In this document: positions 8,904 through 30,134 of the stretch, one piece after another
How the letters are laid out: each line of letters starts with the position of its first letter
Numbering within the stretch: position 1 is the stretch's first letter
IMG/VR virus record: IMGVR_UViG_3300034107_000080
Coordinates: 1-32,705 of that record
Origin: a virus
Strand: one strand, 5' to 3'
Length of the DNA: 32,705 bases
Made by a program: the position numbers and the translations under genes
Notes under the pieces: model-generated
The model's database searches: none
What the model was told of the DNA's origin: nothing
Seen by the model: only the letters and a program-made list of their open reading frames with translations

Positions 8904-11426
8904 ATGAAAAACGTTGCACTATACATTTATATCGACGAGTTAATTGATGACGTCTTAACGCCAATTAGACACCGTTTAGAATTGTTTGCCGATGAATCAA
9001 TTAGCGTGACTTCATCGATTACTAATTTTAGAGATTTAGCAAAGATATTTACGGACTATTCAAAGGCGTTTACTATTCCAGCATCGAGCCACAATAACAA
9101 AATTCTTTACCATTGGTATAATAGCGAAGTAGGAGCAACAATTATAGATAACCCTTTGAGTTTAACAGATGCGTTTGACCATAGAATAACGTATTATGGT
9201 TATATTGAAATTGACACTATTCCTTTTCGTTATGGAAAGTGGTCGTTAAAAGGAAGTAAGAAAACAGACAATAAAATAGAAAGTTACTCGATAAACTTTA
9301 CTGGTAATTTAGTGCAATTAAAGGAGCGTTTTAAAGATGACAAATTAAACGCAATAGCATACTTTGAGGATGGCGTTAGAATAAGTCCTTACGATGCATT
9401 AAATCACGCTTGGAACTTAACGCAGGTTAAAAATAGAGTTGATGGTAATGGAACGGATGACATATTATATCCAGTTATTGGAACAAAGAGAAAATTATTT
9501 TTAAGTGCTGGAGCAACCGCAGCCGATAATATTTCAACTACTGCGGGAAAATTAAAATTTGATGAAATTTTTCCAGCAATAAGAGTAACTAAAATATTAG
9601 AGTATATCCAAACTTGTTACGGTATTCAGTTTGATGGTGCATTTATACAAAGCCAAACTTTTAGCAAATTATTTTTATACTTAAAAAATCAAGATGAATT
9701 TGTAATAAAGGCGCAGCAAGTTAGAGTTAACTTTACAAGTAAGCAAGGTTATACGCAAGTATTAAGCAATCACACTAATCCGCAAACATCTACAAATCAA
9801 AGTGCTTATTTATTTAACGATTTGAATTTAGATACAGACGTAGTAACATTTGATTTAGATTACGCACCATTTTTTTCTCCTTATACATCACTGCGGCAAG
9901 TTTGGAGAAGGAGAGCCTTGCAATTAACAATAACGGTGACTGCTGGGGCTTCAAATCCTTACAATCTTTATGTATATAATAACGGAATTTTATATTCAAC
10001 TTTTGAAAATATAGTAGGCACTGCTACTCAAACAATCTTTGCATTGAATTTTTTTGGGGCTTCGGCTGATCCAGATGATTTTAATGTTTATAATTTTACT
10101 TTTTTTGTTTCTAGCGATAGCGGAATAACATTTGAAAGCACATTAACGCATACAGTTTCAGTTACTTCAAATCAATCTTATAATTATTTTGGGAATATTA
10201 TTTTATCGCCAACTCAAACTCAAATATTAAGAGGTTTCGGAGCGTCGCAGTCAACAACGTCAAACATTGATATTAAATCATTCGTTCCTGATATAACGGT
10301 AATTTCTTTTATCGAGGGTTTAATAAAAATGTTTAATATAATGGTTATTCCAACTAGCGAAACATCGTTTTATTTAGAGCCATTAACAAGATATTACAAC
10401 GATGGAAACAATATAGACATAACAGAGTATGTAATACCTGATTCGATTGATATAAACCCACCACAGTTATTTAAAAGAATAGCTTTTAAATTTGAAAAAT
10501 CAATTAATATTTTAAATGAATTTTTTAGAAGTAATTTCAATAAAGAATTTGGAGACTTAAATTTCGAAAATCAAAACAGCGCATTTTCTGAAACGTACGA
10601 AGTGGCTTTACCTTTTGAAGATTTTATTTTTGAAAGGGAAACTGCAACGGATTTTTTAACTGCTACCATATTTAACAAAGACATAAAAGCATACGTTCCA
10701 AAACCATCTTTAATTTACTGCAACGGAGCGCAACTAATAACTCCTAATATAAAAATTGGAGACAATTCAACTACAATCGACATTGATAGTTATGTAAGAT
10801 TTTCAAACGAATTAGCTTTAGCAGGTTCAGATGTAGCTTACACACAATCTTTGAGTTGGGGTGCGGAAGTTTCGGCTTGGGATTTGGATATTAACTTTGT
10901 AGGACTTTATCAAAGGTTTTATTCAAGTTATATTGAAAATTTATTTAACCAACGAACTAGAATTTTAAAACTAAAGGCGATGCTGCCAACTTCTTTAATT
11001 TGTTCAATAAAATTAAAAGATAAAATGATAGTTTCAAACAAGCGATATTTAATAAACACAATGACACCAGAACTTACAACTGGGGAAACTTCCTTTGAGT
11101 TGATTTTGGATAATTCGCCAACGCTAGAAGATGAGCAAACCGAAGTACTACGCTTTTCAAATTTAAACACGTTAGAGTTAGACAATAAGGCGCAAGTTAT
11201 TGAGGCACAAATTTTTTTAAGTGATAACGATTATTGGCAGGCAAAAACTGCAACGGGATTTTTAACGGGTGCTTATTTTAAAGATGATACTTTTTCAGAT
11301 GGACTTTTAAACGTTTCAGTTCCAGCAAATGCAACGGGTTTATTTAGAGATGGAAGTATAGTTATAGAATTTTACAAAGACGGAGTAGGAAAATCAGTAC
11401 AAATACCAGTTACACAAAATGCTTAA
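8904..11426 (+). CDS. Large tail/baseplate protein
   Basis: An 840-residue beta-rich protein, the largest in the genome. The N-terminus (RLELFADESISVTSSITNFR, then FTIPASSHNNKILYHWYN) matches a big family of Bacteroidota phage structural proteins found beside the tape measure. It contains no recognised glycosidase or peptidase motif. It probably forms the baseplate hub or tail tip. Gene order places it before the tape measure, whereas in most siphoviruses the tail-tip genes come after. Start ATG directly abuts the previous stop; the next small gene starts inside its 3' end. Confidence 0.65.
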   Translation: MKNVALYIYIDELIDDVLTPIRHRLELFADESISVTSSITNFRDLAKIFTDYSKAFTIPASSHNNKILYHWYNSEVGATIIDNPLSLTDAFDHRITYYGYIEIDTIPFRYGKWSLKGSKKTDNKIESYSINFTGNLVQLKERFKDDKLNAIAYFEDGVRISPYDALNHAWNLTQVKNRVDGNGTDDILYPVIGTKRKLFLSAGATAADNISTTAGKLKFDEIFPAIRVTKILEYIQTCYGIQFDGAFIQSQTFSKLFLYLKNQDEFVIKAQQVRVNFTSKQGYTQVLSNHTNPQTSTNQSAYLFNDLNLDTDVVTFDLDYAPFFSPYTSLRQVWRRRALQLTITVTAGASNPYNLYVYNNGILYSTFENIVGTATQTIFALNFFGASADPDDFNVYNFTFFVSSDSGITFESTLTHTVSVTSNQSYNYFGNIILSPTQTQILRGFGASQSTTSNIDIKSFVPDITVISFIEGLIKMFNIMVIPTSETSFYLEPLTRYYNDGNNIDITEYVIPDSIDINPPQLFKRIAFKFEKSINILNEFFRSNFNKEFGDLNFENQNSAFSETYEVALPFEDFIFERETATDFLTATIFNKDIKAYVPKPSLIYCNGAQLITPNIKIGDNSTTIDIDSYVRFSNELALAGSDVAYTQSLSWGAEVSAWDLDINFVGLYQRFYSSYIENLFNQRTRILKLKAMLPTSLICSIKLKDKMIVSNKRYLINTMTPELTTGETSFELILDNSPTLEDEQTEVLRFSNLNTLELDNKAQVIEAQIFLSDNDYWQAKTATGFLTGAYFKDDTFSDGLLNVSVPANATGLFRDGSIVIEFYKDGVGKSVQIPVTQNA

Positions 11427-16416: not shown

Positions 16417-16443
16417 AAACCCATCTTAATTGATGGGTTTTTT
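16417..16443 (+). terminator. Terminator after the major tail gene
   Basis: AAACCCATC (16417-16425) pairs with GATGGGTTT (16432-16440) with loop TTAATT, followed by a run of six T (16438-16443). This is the strongest intrinsic terminator in the window. Confidence 0.9.
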
Positions 16444-16475
16444 GTTACAATTTAGTTTTTTTTAGTCTTATAAAT

Positions 16476-25720: not shown

Positions 25721-26583
25721 ATGTATTAAGTTTATTTAACGGAATGAATACAGGTAGGCAAGCACTTGAAAACGTAGGAATCAAAGTTGACAAGTACTAT
25801 TCAAGCGAGATTAAGCCTTATGCAATAGAACTTACTCAACATCACTTCCCCGACACTATTCAAGTCGGGGATGTTACCAAGTGGCGTGAGTGGGATATTG
25901 ATTGGAAAACTATTGATTTAGTTTTAAGCGGTTCTCCTTGTCAAGATTTAAGTATTGGAGGTAAAAGAGCAGGTATAAACGGAAGTAGAAGTAGTCTTTT
26001 CTTTGTTTTTGTCGAGATACTAGAACATATCAAAGAACTTAATCCAAAAGTATTATTTCTCCAAGAGAATGTTGGTAGTGCAAGTAAGTTAGATGTAGGA
26101 ATTATGAGCCGAGCGTTGGGAGTTTACCCAGTACGCATTAACAGTTCGCTTTTGACTGCACAACTTCGAGATAGGTACTATTGGAGCAATATAAGAACAA
26201 AAGAAACTATGTTTGATGTTGTTACAGATATACCACAACCAAAAGATAAAGGGATAATGTTTAAGGATATTTTAGAAAACGGAACTACAGACAGAATTAA
26301 AAGTTCTTGTTTAACCGAAAGAGAATATAAAAATATTTATAGAGATATGGATAAGTTAAAAAAACATATTGAAAATAAAAGAGAACAAGGTTTCGAACCA
26401 TTAATTCACGCAGTAGTTAATGATAAAGTTAGAAATTTAACTAAAACAGAATTTTGCAGATTACAAGGTTTCCCTGATAATTACTGCGATATTTTATCAA
26501 TTCAAAAAACTATTAGTTTATTAGGCGATGGTTGGACTTTACCAGTTATTGAGCATATTTTTTCTTTTATTGTTGCAGATTAA
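25717..26583 (+). CDS. DNA cytosine-C5 methyltransferase
   Basis: A compact 288-residue enzyme with all core motifs: I (SLFNGMNTGRQAL, 5-17), IV with catalytic C75 (SGSPCQDLS), VI (LQENV, 115-119), VIII (QLRDR, 149-153), IX (LTKTEFCRLQGFPDNY, 241-256) and X (GDGWTLPVIEHI, 270-281). It transfers a methyl group from SAM to C5 of cytosine; the target sequence, set by the region at about 160-240, cannot be predicted. No restriction nuclease is nearby, so it is an orphan phage methylase, either for restriction evasion or as the first step of cytosine modification with the dioxygenase at 3565. Confidence 0.95.
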   Translation: MNVLSLFNGMNTGRQALENVGIKVDKYYSSEIKPYAIELTQHHFPDTIQVGDVTKWREWDIDWKTIDLVLSGSPCQDLSIGGKRAGINGSRSSLFFVFVEILEHIKELNPKVLFLQENVGSASKLDVGIMSRALGVYPVRINSSLLTAQLRDRYYWSNIRTKETMFDVVTDIPQPKDKGIMFKDILENGTTDRIKSSCLTEREYKNIYRDMDKLKKHIENKREQGFEPLIHAVVNDKVRNLTKTEFCRLQGFPDNYCDILSIQKTISLLGDGWTLPVIEHIFSFIVAD

Positions 26584-26602
26584 AAACTTTTTTTTATATT
26601 TG
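26572..26602 (+). promoter_or_regulatory. Promoter before pseudoknot element 1
   Basis: GTTG at 26572-26575 (one base off TTTG), 19 bp, then TATATTTG at 26595-26602. The pseudoknot begins 9 nt after the -7 box, so the RNA would start just before stem 1. Confidence 0.75.
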
Positions 26603-26611
26603 CAAAACAAT

Positions 26612-26691
26612 CTGGTCAGAGATTGAAACAAAACTATAATCGATCCTAATTTTGCCTACTCTGACCAGTAGGATTTAAGTTAGGATTTTTT
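26612..26691 (+). ncRNA. Structured leader element 1 (predicted pseudoknot)
   Basis: Stem 1: CTGGTCAGAG (26612-26621) with CTCTGACCAG (26659-26668), 10 bp, perfect. Stem 2: ATCCTAATTT in the loop (26643-26652) with AAGTTAGGAT (26677-26686), 10 pairs including one G-T. The arms interleave (A-B-A'-B'), which is an H-type pseudoknot, and stem 2 is followed by a run of six T. A second TAGGAT at 26669-26674 could compete for the same loop bases. It lies in the leader of the 26704 gene. It may be an attenuator, a translation switch or the body of a small RNA. Confidence 0.65.
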
Positions 26692-26703
26692 AATTTAAAC
26701 ATT

Positions 26704-27147
26704 ATGAGCAAAGATTTATTCCAGTTAATGCGACAACAAGAGATTGACACGCAAAACTTTTTACCAAACCGCCTTGAGATCCAACTATCTTCAAGAAATT
26801 TCATTAAAGATTTGTTAGATGCTGGAGAAACAGACAAATTTGAACTACTAGCGCAAGCCAAACGAATGGGCGAAGCGTTGGAAGTAATTAACGCTGAACT
26901 TTTAAAAGTACTCCCGCAAGAAAACTTTGAAGCGTTTGGACTTAAAGGCACATTTAGAAGCGGTGGCGAAACTATCAACTACAAAGATTGTGAAGTTTGG
27001 AACGACATTAACCGAGAACTAAAAGAACGCGAGGAACTTCTTAAACTAGCTTTGAAATCGCAAAACGAAATATACGATGAGGCTGGAGTACAGGTGCCTA
27101 AAGTATCAACAACGCCACGCAAAAGCAGTTTGGCAATATCATTTTAA
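26704..27147 (+). CDS. Hypothetical recombination-module protein (147 aa)
   Basis: A 147-residue soluble protein, helical in the first two thirds (SSRNFIKDLLDAGETDKFEL) and ending in a short basic tail with the terminal SSLAISF. It has its own promoter and a structured leader (element 1) and comes right before the ERF recombinase gene, so it probably belongs to the single-strand annealing module, perhaps as an exonuclease or host-nuclease modulator. I do not recognise the family with confidence. Confidence 0.7.
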   Translation: MSKDLFQLMRQQEIDTQNFLPNRLEIQLSSRNFIKDLLDAGETDKFELLAQAKRMGEALEVINAELLKVLPQENFEAFGLKGTFRSGGETINYKDCEVWNDINRELKEREELLKLALKSQNEIYDEAGVQVPKVSTTPRKSSLAISF

Positions 27148-27176
27148 AACAATAATTAATTTTAATATCTTATCTT

Positions 27177-27671
27177 ATGAAAAACATTGCAACCGCTTTA
27201 CTAAAAGCACAATCCGAAATGAGCAACGCCAAAAAAGGCGCAGTTAATCCATTCTTTAAAAGCAAATACGCAGATCTAAACGCAATCCGGGAGGCAGTTA
27301 TTCCAACGTTAAACGCAAACGGTATATCGGTACTCCAGCCGATTGTACACGTGGATGGCAAAAACTTTGTTAAGACTATTTTGCTGCACGAAACTGGGGA
27401 AATGATGGAATCTTTAACCGAAATAGTTTACAACAAAATAAACGATGCGCAGGCCCAGGGATCCGGAATAAGTTACGCCCGCAGATATTCGCTTCAATCA
27501 TTTGTTTGCGTAGGCGCAGATGATGACGATGGACAAAAGGCAGTAGAGCCAAAACCAAACGCTACAAATGAAATACTAAAAAAGGCAAAAGAGGGAGGCT
27601 TTTCATTGGATCAAGTCAAAACCAAATACACAATAACACAACAACAAGAAACAATTTTTATTAATCTTTAA
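27177..27671 (+). CDS. erf: ERF-family single-strand annealing protein
   Basis: A 164-residue protein. The N-terminal ~130 residues match ERF: ALLKAQSEMSNAKKGAVNPF, FFKSKYADLNAIREAVIP, QAQGSGISYARRYSLQS and CVGADDDDG. ERF proteins form rings that anneal complementary DNA strands in phage recombination and genome circularisation. The C-terminal part is shorter than in P22 Erf. It lies between the 147-aa protein and an SSB-like gene, forming a standard annealing module. Confidence 0.9.
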   Translation: MKNIATALLKAQSEMSNAKKGAVNPFFKSKYADLNAIREAVIPTLNANGISVLQPIVHVDGKNFVKTILLHETGEMMESLTEIVYNKINDAQAQGSGISYARRYSLQSFVCVGADDDDGQKAVEPKPNATNEILKKAKEGGFSLDQVKTKYTITQQQETIFINL

Positions 27672-27681
27672 TTTTTTATTT

Positions 27682-27969
27682 ATGGCGCAGTCTTATTATG
27701 GTTCAATCGATTTTAGTAAATTAATTGAACAAGCAAAATCGGGAAACAAGGCTTTTACAAAATCCGAAAACGGAAAAATTTATTTAAACGTGCGGATGTA
27801 CGTTAATGATGAAGTTGATAAATTTGGAAACATCGCCTCATTTCAATCAAACTTTAAAGGAGCAGGCAAAGAGGACAAGTTCTATTTTGGTAATATGAAA
27901 GAATCAACTCCAATGGAGGCACAAATTGAAATTTCAGATGTTCCAGCAGAGGATGATCTACCATTTTAA
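27682..27969 (+). CDS. Single-stranded DNA-binding-like protein with acidic tip
   Basis: A 95-residue protein: a beta-rich body (GKIYLNVRMYVNDEVDKFGN, then ASFQSNFKGAGKEDKFYFG) and an acidic C-terminal tip ending DDLPF, like the SSB tip that recruits partner proteins. It is short for a normal OB-fold SSB, but this reduced form is common in Bacteroidota phages. It follows ERF by 10 bp, and a terminator-like hairpin follows its stop. Confidence 0.75.
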   Translation: MAQSYYGSIDFSKLIEQAKSGNKAFTKSENGKIYLNVRMYVNDEVDKFGNIASFQSNFKGAGKEDKFYFGNMKESTPMEAQIEISDVPAEDDLPF

Positions 27970-27976
27970 TTAAAAA

Positions 27977-28008
27977 ACGCCTCGTTAATTCGGGGCGTAA
28001 TTTTTATT
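27977..28008 (+). terminator. Hairpin terminator after the SSB-like gene
   Basis: ACGCCTCG (27977-27984) pairs with CGGGGCGT (27991-27998, one G-T pair), loop TTAATT, followed by AATTTTTATT. Probably partial, as the next gene starts at 28010 without its own visible promoter. Confidence 0.75.
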
Positions 28009-28009
28009 T

Positions 28010-28450
28010 ATGAAATACAAAATAATATCCAGCGTTGAAAGCGGAAATATTAAACGAAACAGAGAGCAAGTTAAACAAGCGATTGCAGAGTTTGAGGGTA
28101 AGAACATTGTAATAACTATTGAAAAACTTAAAAAGAGCCGTTCTAACAATCAAAACGCATATTATTGGGGCGTAGTTATTCCAATCGTTCAAAGTGGCCT
28201 AAAAGATGCTACGGGAGAGTTCAGGAGTGCCGATTCAATTCACTACGGAATATTACTTCCGTTGTTTGCTCCGAGTAATGAGATTGTAAATATTGATACT
28301 GGGCAAGTGCTAGAGGAAAAAATTAGTTCCAGCGAAATGACTACAGTTCAATTTATGGAATATGTTTTGGAAGTTCAAAAATGGAGTGCGGAATTTTTGG
28401 GAGTTGACATCCCAAATCCTAATGAAGAAATTTTATTGAATTTAGATTGA
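28010..28450 (+). CDS. ninB: NinB-like recombination protein
   Basis: A 146-residue protein with the NinB/Orf-like pattern: KKSRSNNQNAYYWGVVIPIV (about 41-60) and a C-terminal WSAEFLGVDIPNPNEE. In lambda, NinB (Orf) binds single-stranded DNA and helps strand annealing in place of RecFOR. It belongs with ERF and NinG here. A promoter for element 2 lies within its last codons and stop region. Confidence 0.8.
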   Translation: MKYKIISSVESGNIKRNREQVKQAIAEFEGKNIVITIEKLKKSRSNNQNAYYWGVVIPIVQSGLKDATGEFRSADSIHYGILLPLFAPSNEIVNIDTGQVLEEKISSSEMTTVQFMEYVLEVQKWSAEFLGVDIPNPNEEILLNLD

Positions 28451-28476
28451 TTATTTAAAATATATTTTTATATTTG
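28446..28476 (+). promoter_or_regulatory. Promoter before pseudoknot element 2
   Basis: ATTG at 28446-28449 (one base off TTTG), 19 bp, then TATATTTG at 28469-28476. Stem 1 of the RNA element starts 9 nt later, the same spacing as in element 1. Confidence 0.75.
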
Positions 28477-28485
28477 TTGCGGTTG

Positions 28486-28570
28486 GCGTCTCACACAATA
28501 CCAACTTAAAGGAATTACATAAACTCCTATAATGAAACCGAAGTGAGACGCGGTGGATTTATTGGAGTTT
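28486..28570 (+). ncRNA. Structured leader element 2 (predicted pseudoknot)
   Basis: Stem 1: GCGTCTCAC (28486-28494) with GTGAGACGC (28543-28551), 9 bp, perfect. Stem 2: AAACTCCTATAA in the loop (28521-28532) with TTATTGGAGTTT (28559-28570), 11 of 12 paired (one T-T mismatch). The arms interleave as in elements 1 and 3. A four-codon ORF (MKPK) starts inside stem 2. After the element come about 60 nt of leader before the gene at 28632. Stem 2 is followed by TCTGTTT rather than a clean T-run. Confidence 0.65.
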
Positions 28571-28631
28571 TCTGTTTAAAGCGGAAGCCGAAAAGCTAAT
28601 AGAGTAGGCAAAAAAAATAATTTTATAAGTT

Positions 28632-29453
28632 ATGTTTAACAACAAAACCGCACCAATGACAAATGGCTCAAGTGCAATCCAAGAAGTAAACAAAGTTTAC
28701 AAAACAAGTGATTTATCAATCTTTAAAGAAATTAGTGGCAATCGTGTCCCTAATCCGCAACACGTAAAAAGATTAACAGATTCAATTAAACAAAATGGAA
28801 TGTTATGCAATCCTATTTTAGTCAATGAATCAATGAGAGTTATTGACGGACAACATCGACTGCTAGCTTCAAAAGATGCAAATTCTCATTTGTATTTTAT
28901 TATATTGGATGGGTATTCTTTAAATGAAGTTCACACTTTAAACCTTAATCAAAAAAATTGGACTAAAAAAGATTTTATGGATGGTTACGCAGATATGGGA
29001 CTAGAATCTTATAAAAAACTTCAAGTTTTTGTAGAAAAAAATACCGATTTTTCTTTTGGTGATTGTATTGCAATGTGTAGTAATTTATCAACTGATGGAG
29101 GTTTTTCATCAAGTCAAAAAAATAGATCTAATAAAAAAAATGGCGAATTAAGTAATATATCAGAAATTTTTGTAGATGGTACTTGGCGAGGTAAAAATTT
29201 TGATTTAGCTAATGAATGGGCTGAAAAACTAAGACTTGTTAAACCATATTATGTTGGATACAATAAGTCAACTTTTGTAGGAACTATGTTATCTTTATTT
29301 ATTAATCCAATTTTTGATTATAGCGAGTTTATGCACAAGATTAGAATACAACCAAAAGCACTTGTTGATTGCGCAAATAGAGAGCAACAGAAATTATTAA
29401 TTGAGGAAATCTACAATTATAAGAGTAGAAATAAAGTTAACTTAAGATACTAA
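28632..29453 (+). CDS. ParB-like protein with DGQHR motif
   Basis: A 273-residue protein. The ParB-type N-terminal domain is at about 24-95: NPQHVKRLTDSIKQNGMLCN, ILVNESMRVIDGQHRLLASK (DGQHRL at 72-77). The rest is helical with no motif I recognise. ParB-like proteins in phages bind or process DNA; some act in partition or in DNA modification. It is transcribed from the promoter at 28446 with structured leader element 2, so its level may depend on that element. It differs from the other ParB-like protein (2297) in its box II sequence. Confidence 0.75.
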   Translation: MFNNKTAPMTNGSSAIQEVNKVYKTSDLSIFKEISGNRVPNPQHVKRLTDSIKQNGMLCNPILVNESMRVIDGQHRLLASKDANSHLYFIILDGYSLNEVHTLNLNQKNWTKKDFMDGYADMGLESYKKLQVFVEKNTDFSFGDCIAMCSNLSTDGGFSSSQKNRSNKKNGELSNISEIFVDGTWRGKNFDLANEWAEKLRLVKPYYVGYNKSTFVGTMLSLFINPIFDYSEFMHKIRIQPKALVDCANREQQKLLIEEIYNYKSRNKVNLRY

Positions 29454-29472
29454 TTTTTTATTTAAAAATGTT

Positions 29473-29480
29473 TATGTTTG
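29473..29480 (+). promoter_or_regulatory. Likely promoter -7 box before pseudoknot element 3
   Basis: TATGTTTG (TAnnTTTG) at 29473-29480, 13 nt before stem 1. No clear TTTG 19 bp upstream, so the promoter is weaker or read by another sigma factor. Confidence 0.55.
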
Positions 29481-29493
29481 CAAATGTAATTTA

Positions 29494-29576
29494 GTGAGAT
29501 TTATTACAATGTAAAATATTATAAGAATCCGATACGGAAAGCGAAATCTCACAATACGCTGACTGTATCGGATTTT
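29494..29576 (+). ncRNA. Structured leader element 3 (predicted pseudoknot)
   Basis: Stem 1: GTGAGATTT (29494-29502) with AAATCTCAC (29544-29552), 9 bp, perfect. Stem 2: AATCCGATAC in the loop (29526-29535) with GTATCGGATT (29565-29574), 10 bp, perfect, followed by TTAACTTTT. Same interleaved order and loop sizes as elements 1 and 2, but different sequence. It forms the leader of the initiator-like gene at 29592; the gene starts 17 nt after stem 2. Confidence 0.7.
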
Positions 29577-29591
29577 AACTTTTATAATAGT

Positions 29592-30134
29592 ATGAAACTA
29601 ACCAAACGCAAAGGATTTAACTTTTTTAGATCATATTACGATGTTTATAATGAACTAGAAAATGATGCAGATAAGGTGGCTTTTATTGATGCCTTACTTG
29701 ATAGACAGTTTTTAGGAATTAAACCTTTAAACCTTACCGGAATGGCTAAATTTGCCTACATTAGTCAGACTAATAGTATTGATTCGCAAGTAAAAGGATA
29801 CGAAGATAAAACTAAAACTATTTTAACCCCTACCGTAGGGGGTAGGCAAGGGGGTAATCAACCCCCTACCGAACAAGTAGAAGTAAAAGAGAAAGTAAAA
29901 GTAGAAGATATAAATATACCTGATTGGGATTTGTTTTTATCCTACGGAAAAGAAAAGGAACCCAGCGTAAAAATATCTGCATTAAAACACAAATACGATG
30001 CTTGGGTTGTTAATGGTTGGAAAAACGGAAACGATAAGCCTATTAAGAACTGGAAATCCGCTTTACTTCAAACACTAGCGTATATTGAAAAGGAACAAAA
30101 GCCAAAAGATAACCACATACCATTACGAATATGA
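29592..30134 (+). CDS. Replication initiator-like protein (DUF6291/DnaD-like)
   Basis: A 180-residue protein. The N-terminal half (FFRSYYDVYNELENDADKVA, FAYISQTNSIDSQVKGYEDK) resembles the DUF6291 domain found in replication proteins of Bacteroidota phages. After a linker (TPTVGGRQGGNQPPTEQ) a C-terminal helical part (SALKHKYDAWVVNGWKNGND) is DnaD-like, ending KPIKNWKSAL. The GC-rich linker DNA (29827-29871) holds inverted and direct repeats that may be the replication origin, as in lambda gene O. It begins the replication operon: ATGA coupling to the next gene and structured leader element 3. Confidence 0.65.
   Translation: MKLTKRKGFNFFRSYYDVYNELENDADKVAFIDALLDRQFLGIKPLNLTGMAKFAYISQTNSIDSQVKGYEDKTKTILTPTVGGRQGGNQPPTEQVEVKEKVKVEDINIPDWDLFLSYGKEKEPSVKISALKHKYDAWVVNGWKNGNDKPIKNWKSALLQTLAYIEKEQKPKDNHIPLRI
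29827..29871. repeat. GC-rich iteron-like repeats, possible replication origin
   Basis: Direct repeat CCCCTACCG at 29827-29835 and 29863-29871; inverted repeat GTAGGGGGT (29835-29843) with ACCCCCTAC (29861-29869); palindrome CCCTACCGTAGGG (29828-29840); an extra GGGGGT at 29850-29855. Strongly GC-rich against an AT-rich genome and located in the linker of the initiator-like gene, as with lambda ori inside O. Confidence 0.5.

Follow-up and report, generated by a model that had tools for sequence, protein, structure and literature searches.

Phage leader RNAs conserved as intramolecular kissing hairpins ahead of replication and recombination genes

The viral record IMGVR_UViG_3300034107_000080, a stretch of 32,705 bases that is referred to here as the window and has Flavobacterium phages among its relatives, carries structured leader RNAs before the genes starting at 26704, 28632 and 29592. 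All three belong to a widespread family of leader RNAs, present in many phages with Bacteroidota-type promoters, in which the fold is strongly conserved while the sequence is not. Each is an intramolecular kissing complex, in which two complete hairpins (P1 and P2) pair through their apical loops (A and A'). RNA control in Bacteroidota phages is little known, and this family is large, structurally very well supported and placed at the predicted transcript start of replication and recombination genes. It provides a natural set of cis kissing-loop leaders that keep pairing rather than sequence, and a testable handle on the timing of gene expression in these phages.

Results

Interleaved stems are rare by chance and form two hairpins with complementary loops

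A preliminary description of the window, made from the sequence alone, had reported two inverted repeats with alternating arms (A-B-A'-B') before each of the three genes and had read them as H-type pseudoknots. All three were recovered where they had been reported, with arm and loop sizes agreeing within a few bases, and in each case the interleaved repeats began 9–13 nucleotides (nt) 3' of a TAnnTTTG box, a motif described for a Bacteroidota sigma factor (PMC7366714). The frequency of equivalent repeats in shuffled leaders had been named as a way to refute the idea; the interleaved-stem score was matched by 0/1000, 1/600 and 0/1000 dinucleotide shuffles for leaders 1, 2 and 3, respectively, and the full descriptor of P1, kissing helix and P2 by 0/2000 for each leader. 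On the plus strand of the window, a score ≥ 40 combined with a TAnnTTTG box immediately 5' occurred only at the three leader sites.

When approximately 100 relatives were lined up, A proved to be the apical loop of the 5' hairpin P1 and A' the apical loop of the longer hairpin P2, the 3' arm of which leads into a U-tract. For each of the three window leaders, RNAfold, which cannot predict pseudoknots, returned both P1 and P2, their apical loops being complementary. The layout of the family is a TAnnTTTG box, a spacer of 4–5 nt (in most copies), P1 (4–6 base pairs, bp) with an apical loop A of 6–10 nt, an A-rich linker, and P2, which comprises an outer stem of ~11 bp, an internal loop, a short inner helix, loop A', the 3' arm and a T-run, followed by the start codon, mostly after another 13–26 nt. 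Kissing helices are mostly 7–8 bp. P2 has the appearance AAxCCC...GGGTT plus a U-run of 6–8 nt, as do the intrinsic terminators of these genomes, and its sequence is biased toward CC(C/T)T...(A/G)GGG-T-run.

Covariation demonstrates selection on the RNA fold

Covariation in homologous leaders, also proposed as a check, was strong. A covariance model (R1) was built from P1 and P2 only, without the kissing helix being supplied, and run on viral contigs picked by a pattern that held no P1 or kissing information, yielding 68 distinct sequences. In these, the kissing helix was 97.5% paired and showed 127 double-sided changes, compared to 35.7 ± 5.8 when shuffled, and its pairing fell to 30–41% when slid by 1–3 columns. 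P1 was 98.7% paired with covariation; as the R1 alignment was fitted to P1 and P2, counts for these two helices are biased toward structure, whereas kissing counts are not. MAFFT alignment on the basis of sequence only gave a score of 0.569 for the three helices vs 0.205 for shuffled data, and 17 of 22 pairs had changed on both sides. In the R1 set, apical loops from blind RNAfold predictions were complementary over ≥ 6 bp in 34/65 cases vs 6.8 for shuffled partners. The ratio of GU to AC cells was 105:4 in P2 and 8:0 in P1, and the kissing helix was near-strictly Watson-Crick, with 1 GU in 447 cells. The great excess of GU over AC in P2 identifies the plus-strand RNA as the selected molecule. 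These results show that P1, P2 and A:A' kissing are all under selection as coding-strand RNA, and they bear out the earlier proposal that structure rather than sequence is selected.

The topology was in part as first described. The interleaved arms expected of an H-type pseudoknot are present, but arm A is not free of a hairpin of its own; because it lies within the well-paired, covarying P1, a plain H-type pseudoknot does not fit. Two hairpins with complementary apical loops and covariation support were found instead, and the window leaders are therefore intramolecular kissing hairpins.

The three leaders of the window

All features given below lie on the plus strand unless stated otherwise. 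Leader 1 has its promoter box, TATATTTG (TAnnTTTG), at 26595..26602, followed by P1 at 26608..26625 (CAAT and ATTG around A; alignment of relatives and RNAfold). Loop A, CTGGTCAGAG (26612-26621), pairs over 10 bp with A' (26659-26668), which is the loop of P2 (26642..26687; repeats and RNAfold); the arms of P2 are B (26642-26652) and B' (26677-26687), its inner helix is CCTA (26655-26658) with TAGG (26669-26672), and a T-rich tract that matches the family trend follows at 26686..26695.

The box of leader 2, again TATATTTG, is at 28469..28476 and P1 at 28481..28506, with GGTTGG and CCAACT flanking A (RNAfold; orthologue L162:4853). Here A is GCGTCTCAC (28486-28494), pairing over 9 bp with A' (28543-28551), the loop of P2 (28521..28570; repeats and sequence alignment), which is formed by B AAACTCCtATAA (28521-28532), B' TTATtGGAGTTT (28559-28570) and an ACC/GGT inner helix. 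The covariance-model match covered 28467-28575 at 96.6 bits, for a copy that was itself in the training set.

In leader 3, the box TATGTTTG (29473..29480) precedes P1 (29485..29508; TGTAAT-tta, A, ATTACA; alignment of relatives and RNAfold), and loop A, GTGAGATTT (29494-29502), pairs over 9 bp with A' (29544-29552). P2 (29524..29576; repeats and RNAfold) has B at 29524-29537, B' at 29563-29576, a GCG/CGC inner helix and A' as its loop, with a T-rich tract behind it. We also observed complementarity between loop A of leader 3 (GTGAGA..., 29494-29502) and that of leader 2 (...TCTCAC, 28486-28494), such that the two leaders could bind each other in trans as well; several subclasses have GTGAG/CTCAC as a recurrent loop.

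The family is common in viral leaders and divides into subclasses

The same architecture was found in 186 distinct viral leaders among the fetched loci, in agreement with the earlier suggestion of a phage RNA family in leaders of recombination and replication genes; copy numbers are to be read as at least, with well over 100 distinct copies in a small fetched sample. Of the intergenic boxes that had a gene starting no more than 220 nt away, 191 of 842 carried the element, as did 138 of 207 leaders of 90–125 nt and 169 of 267 leaders of 85–150 nt (vs 1.15 in shuffles), fractions that are not a census of phages since loci were partly fetched via the genes that follow the element. One element each was found in the named phages 11b, lillamy9-1, Harreka_1, FCL-2, phi19:1, phi10:1 and FL-1, and none in phages 6H and RAP44, in which it was also looked for. 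The genes that follow encode DnaD-like helicase loaders or replication initiators (59/186) or the product type of gene 26704 (25/186), as well as small open reading frames (ORFs) of ~70 amino acids, HNH nucleases, helicases and ParB-methyltransferases.

The copies had been described as unrelated in sequence. Stems and loops do vary, but linker and internal-loop motifs are common to the members of a subclass, and P2 is biased as noted above. Subclass 1 (65/186) has a conserved loop tail ATTATA, the linker AAAGGAATTATT and the internal loop TGA/GGAT, and subclass 2 (25/186) has AGTA/GAA, which by eye resembles a loop-E motif. A long-linker subclass (L080, L093, L104, L160:3800, L188:7118 and L333) includes some copies with a possible extra hairpin in the linker, and several of its copies have a very similar P2, AAACCCTTAAAGA-tgt-A'-c-TCTTTAGGGGTTT. 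A second small conserved element, TAGTTATCGGTAATC..TAAAACCG, a possibly pseudoknotted hairpin, occurs between P2 and the ~70 amino acid ORFs (L079:3249, L084:3235, L099:120, the L157 and L183 leaders, and the L198 leader at 10353) and, where searched in L079 and L099, matched no Rfam family. The idea that the kissing loops of a single phage are mutually orthogonal, in the manner of plasmid incompatibility, was tested and is unsupported: loops were identical in 16/187 within-group pairs vs 2.6% between groups, the grouping being coarse.

Genes around the leaders

The gene order in the window is DNA methylase, the gene of unknown function at 26704, ERF annealing protein, an unknown, NinB-like, ParB-like, DUF6291-like replication-module protein, an unknown, AAA-domain protein and NinG. 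By annotation, the gene at 26704..27147, which starts 16 nt 3' of leader 1 and is without a match in Pfam or PHROG, is followed by the ERF annealing protein (27177-27671) and the NinB-like protein (28010-28450). The ParB-like protein (28632..29453) is the gene after leader 2, and the DUF6291-like protein (29592..30134; a Pfam match under its cut-off) starts 15 nt 3' of leader 3. Between leader 2 and the ParB-like gene lies a known, separate element, a DUF805b RNA (RF02914; 28578..28610, 49.5 bits against a gathering threshold of 35.6). A terminator-like hairpin, CGCCTCG-TTAATT-CGGGGCG (27969-28010, scored on the minus strand), adjoins the NinB-like gene within the presumed leader 1 operon.

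Searches for the element elsewhere

The preliminary description had noted that the layout is not known from any named family. Rfam 15 returned no match to the fold, and in the window it identified only the DUF805b RNA, outside P1 and P2, as it did at E ≤ 2 over 26400-29700. Among 15 loci searched at gathering thresholds DUF805b was again the only match, and four loci searched at E ≤ 0.5 gave none. R1 found no match at E ≤ 1e-4 in a sample of 298 genomes from Flavobacteriales, the order to which Chryseobacterium belongs, which is weak evidence given strict filters and no positive control, and one contig of a metagenome-assembled genome (G009, L441) did match. The full fold was present in 3/118 genome matches to a box-plus-terminator pattern vs 102/121 viral matches, and no bacterial-genome relatives were found when sought through the replication protein. 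Thus bacterial genomes look nearly empty of the element, a view that rests partly on the weak 298-genome negative.

No paper describing these leaders was found in a literature search of incomplete coverage, with bioRxiv preprints and most subscription papers outside it. A 109-bp palindromic structured-RNA candidate in Bacteroidetes, HMP_4078, has been reported near D5 and integrase domains (PMC8040213). Kissing loops, attenuators and phage leader RNAs are each of a known kind; what is new, to the extent that this could be tested, is that they are combined in a phage-wide leader conserved by shape.

Discussion

The folded leader probably determines whether polymerases go on into the gene behind it. 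The start of transcription is probably a few nucleotides past the TAnnTTTG box, such that the RNA would begin directly with P1. At the end of P2 and just beyond, the T fraction over five positions was 0.93, 0.87, 0.81, 0.85 and 0.78, then lower, compared to ~0.3–0.45 in other leaders; the T-rich stretch first noted in leaders 1 and 3 is present there but marks the family as a whole rather than those copies alone. P2 and the ATG were 8–26 nt apart in 134/191 cases. An ordinary terminator-like hairpin of the window, AACCCATC-TTAATT-GATGGGTTTTTT (16418-16450), is similar in look to P2 with its T-run. The T-run makes the element terminator-like, and a stable hairpin directly before a U-tract, between promoter and gene, is what an intrinsic-terminator attenuator consists of, which favours attenuation. 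On the strength of U-tract and position, the attenuator idea of the preliminary description remains the leading explanation, and we regard the chances as about even that the leader is an attenuator in which P2, a promoter-proximal intrinsic terminator with its loop locked by the 5' hairpin, stands ahead of replication and recombination operons.

In such an attenuator, A' would leave the RNA polymerase ahead of the 3' arm of P2, so that the A:A' helix could form first and set the speed and completeness of P2 closure over the U-tract; kissing could speed, stabilise or obstruct that closure. The share of polymerases reading through into the replication or recombination gene would thereby be set, and could be altered by a phage or host factor recognising the kissing complex, while polymerases that stop would set free a compact ~100-nt RNA that is base-paired at its 5' and 3' ends. 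The joint conservation of all helices suggests that selection acts on the complete, terminator-closed fold as a state in its own right. Several features weigh against attenuation: the apical part of P2 exceeds that of typical terminators in size, the folds do not exclude one another, so that no obvious ON/OFF switch is visible, the U-run is interrupted in some copies (window leaders 2 and 3), and both the transcript start and the 3' end after P2 are predictions from sequence. More broadly, it is an evenly balanced proposition that the family represents a Bacteroidota-phage class of regulatory RNA in which a self-contained cis kissing-hairpin complex of the nascent leader, read by shape, free in sequence and reused before many replication genes, controls the elongating polymerase; this could occur through a terminator locked or unlocked by the loop-loop helix or through an RNA-only antiterminator, as alternatives within one reading.

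A put-like RNA, which would bind the elongating polymerase and make it resist pausing and later terminators so as to read through long phage operons, with P2 and the U-run as a pause for folding, is credible but unlikely. HK022 putL, an RNA of ~70 nt with two stem-loops directly 3' of an early promoter, needs no phage protein for its action in cis (PMC9378689). In lillamy9-1, Harreka_1, phi19:1 and phi10:1 a single element stands before replication genes, behind which lie long co-directional gene runs, and in the window the presumed leader 1 operon includes a terminator-like hairpin in the gap ahead of gene 28010. However, a U-tract like that of a terminator runs counter to what such an element requires, window-type phages have several elements inside 3 kb, and Put RNAs are alike in sequence, whereas stems and kissing loops here vary freely; nor are put stems described as kissing, a word absent from the structure paper (PMC9378689). 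That the leader stabilises the mRNA or aids translation, its paired 5' end and kissing clamp blocking 5'-end-dependent decay or presenting the start region to the ribosome, appears rather unlikely: P1 does start 4–5 nt after the box, at about the expected first base of the transcript, and the gap from P2 to the ATG is short and consistent, but the U-tract is left unexplained, the start codon region lies outside the fold and hence is not masked, and in some copies P2 is set apart from the start codon by a further, separate element (DUF805b or the small conserved hairpin).

The paired 5' end, terminator-like 3' end and strict Watson-Crick kissing helix would also suit a stable, terminated small RNA of ~100 nt as the main product, binding a protein in trans (a Rop-like kissing-complex binder or host RNA polymerase). 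We consider this improbable, as nearly all fetched copies precede a gene (free-standing copies were not systematically sought) and a trans-acting RNA is not usually present as many copies per genome with differing loops. Inverted repeats acting as DNA, as operators or origin elements, would accord with the nearby replication genes, but this reading is already largely refuted by the GU over AC asymmetry (105:4 in P2, 8:0 in P1), and with orientation and spacing to the promoter box fixed and many unrelated genes preceded by elements it is scarcely tenable. Plasmid-style antisense control was rejected, since minus-strand TAnnTTTG boxes were not enriched (24/186 elements vs 17.9 shuffled).

Kissing complexes are familiar from ColE1, where loops of ~7 nt in RNAI and RNAII pair fully in a loop-loop helix that is recognised by structure, with Rop, in the intermolecular control of plasmid copy number; the present leaders share the fully paired loops of that size but are intramolecular. 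The T4 gene 32 mRNA leader, an H-type pseudoknot of one gene, autoregulates translation, and is likewise a pseudoknotted phage leader before a DNA-metabolism gene, whereas the leaders described here have kissing hairpins, a terminator-like tail and many genes behind them. HK022 putL and putR resemble them as phage leader RNAs with two hairpins just 3' of a promoter that act in cis (PMC9378689), but, in a comparison by description only, loop-loop pairing is unreported for put, and the present elements have a U-tract after the second hairpin, free sequence and hosts of another phylum. In pT181-type attenuators a 5' hairpin with a kissing loop is also followed by a leader terminator that decides read-through (PMC4878617), but in those systems an antisense RNA serves as partner in trans and the hairpin switches between folds that exclude each other, while here the partner is in cis and a minus-strand promoter is not enriched. 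The DUF805b RNA (RF02914), annotated as cis-regulatory, shares leader 2 but is a separate 33-nt element downstream, found in few of the leaders searched; it was also present at L002:3447-3479 and L026:3449-3481.

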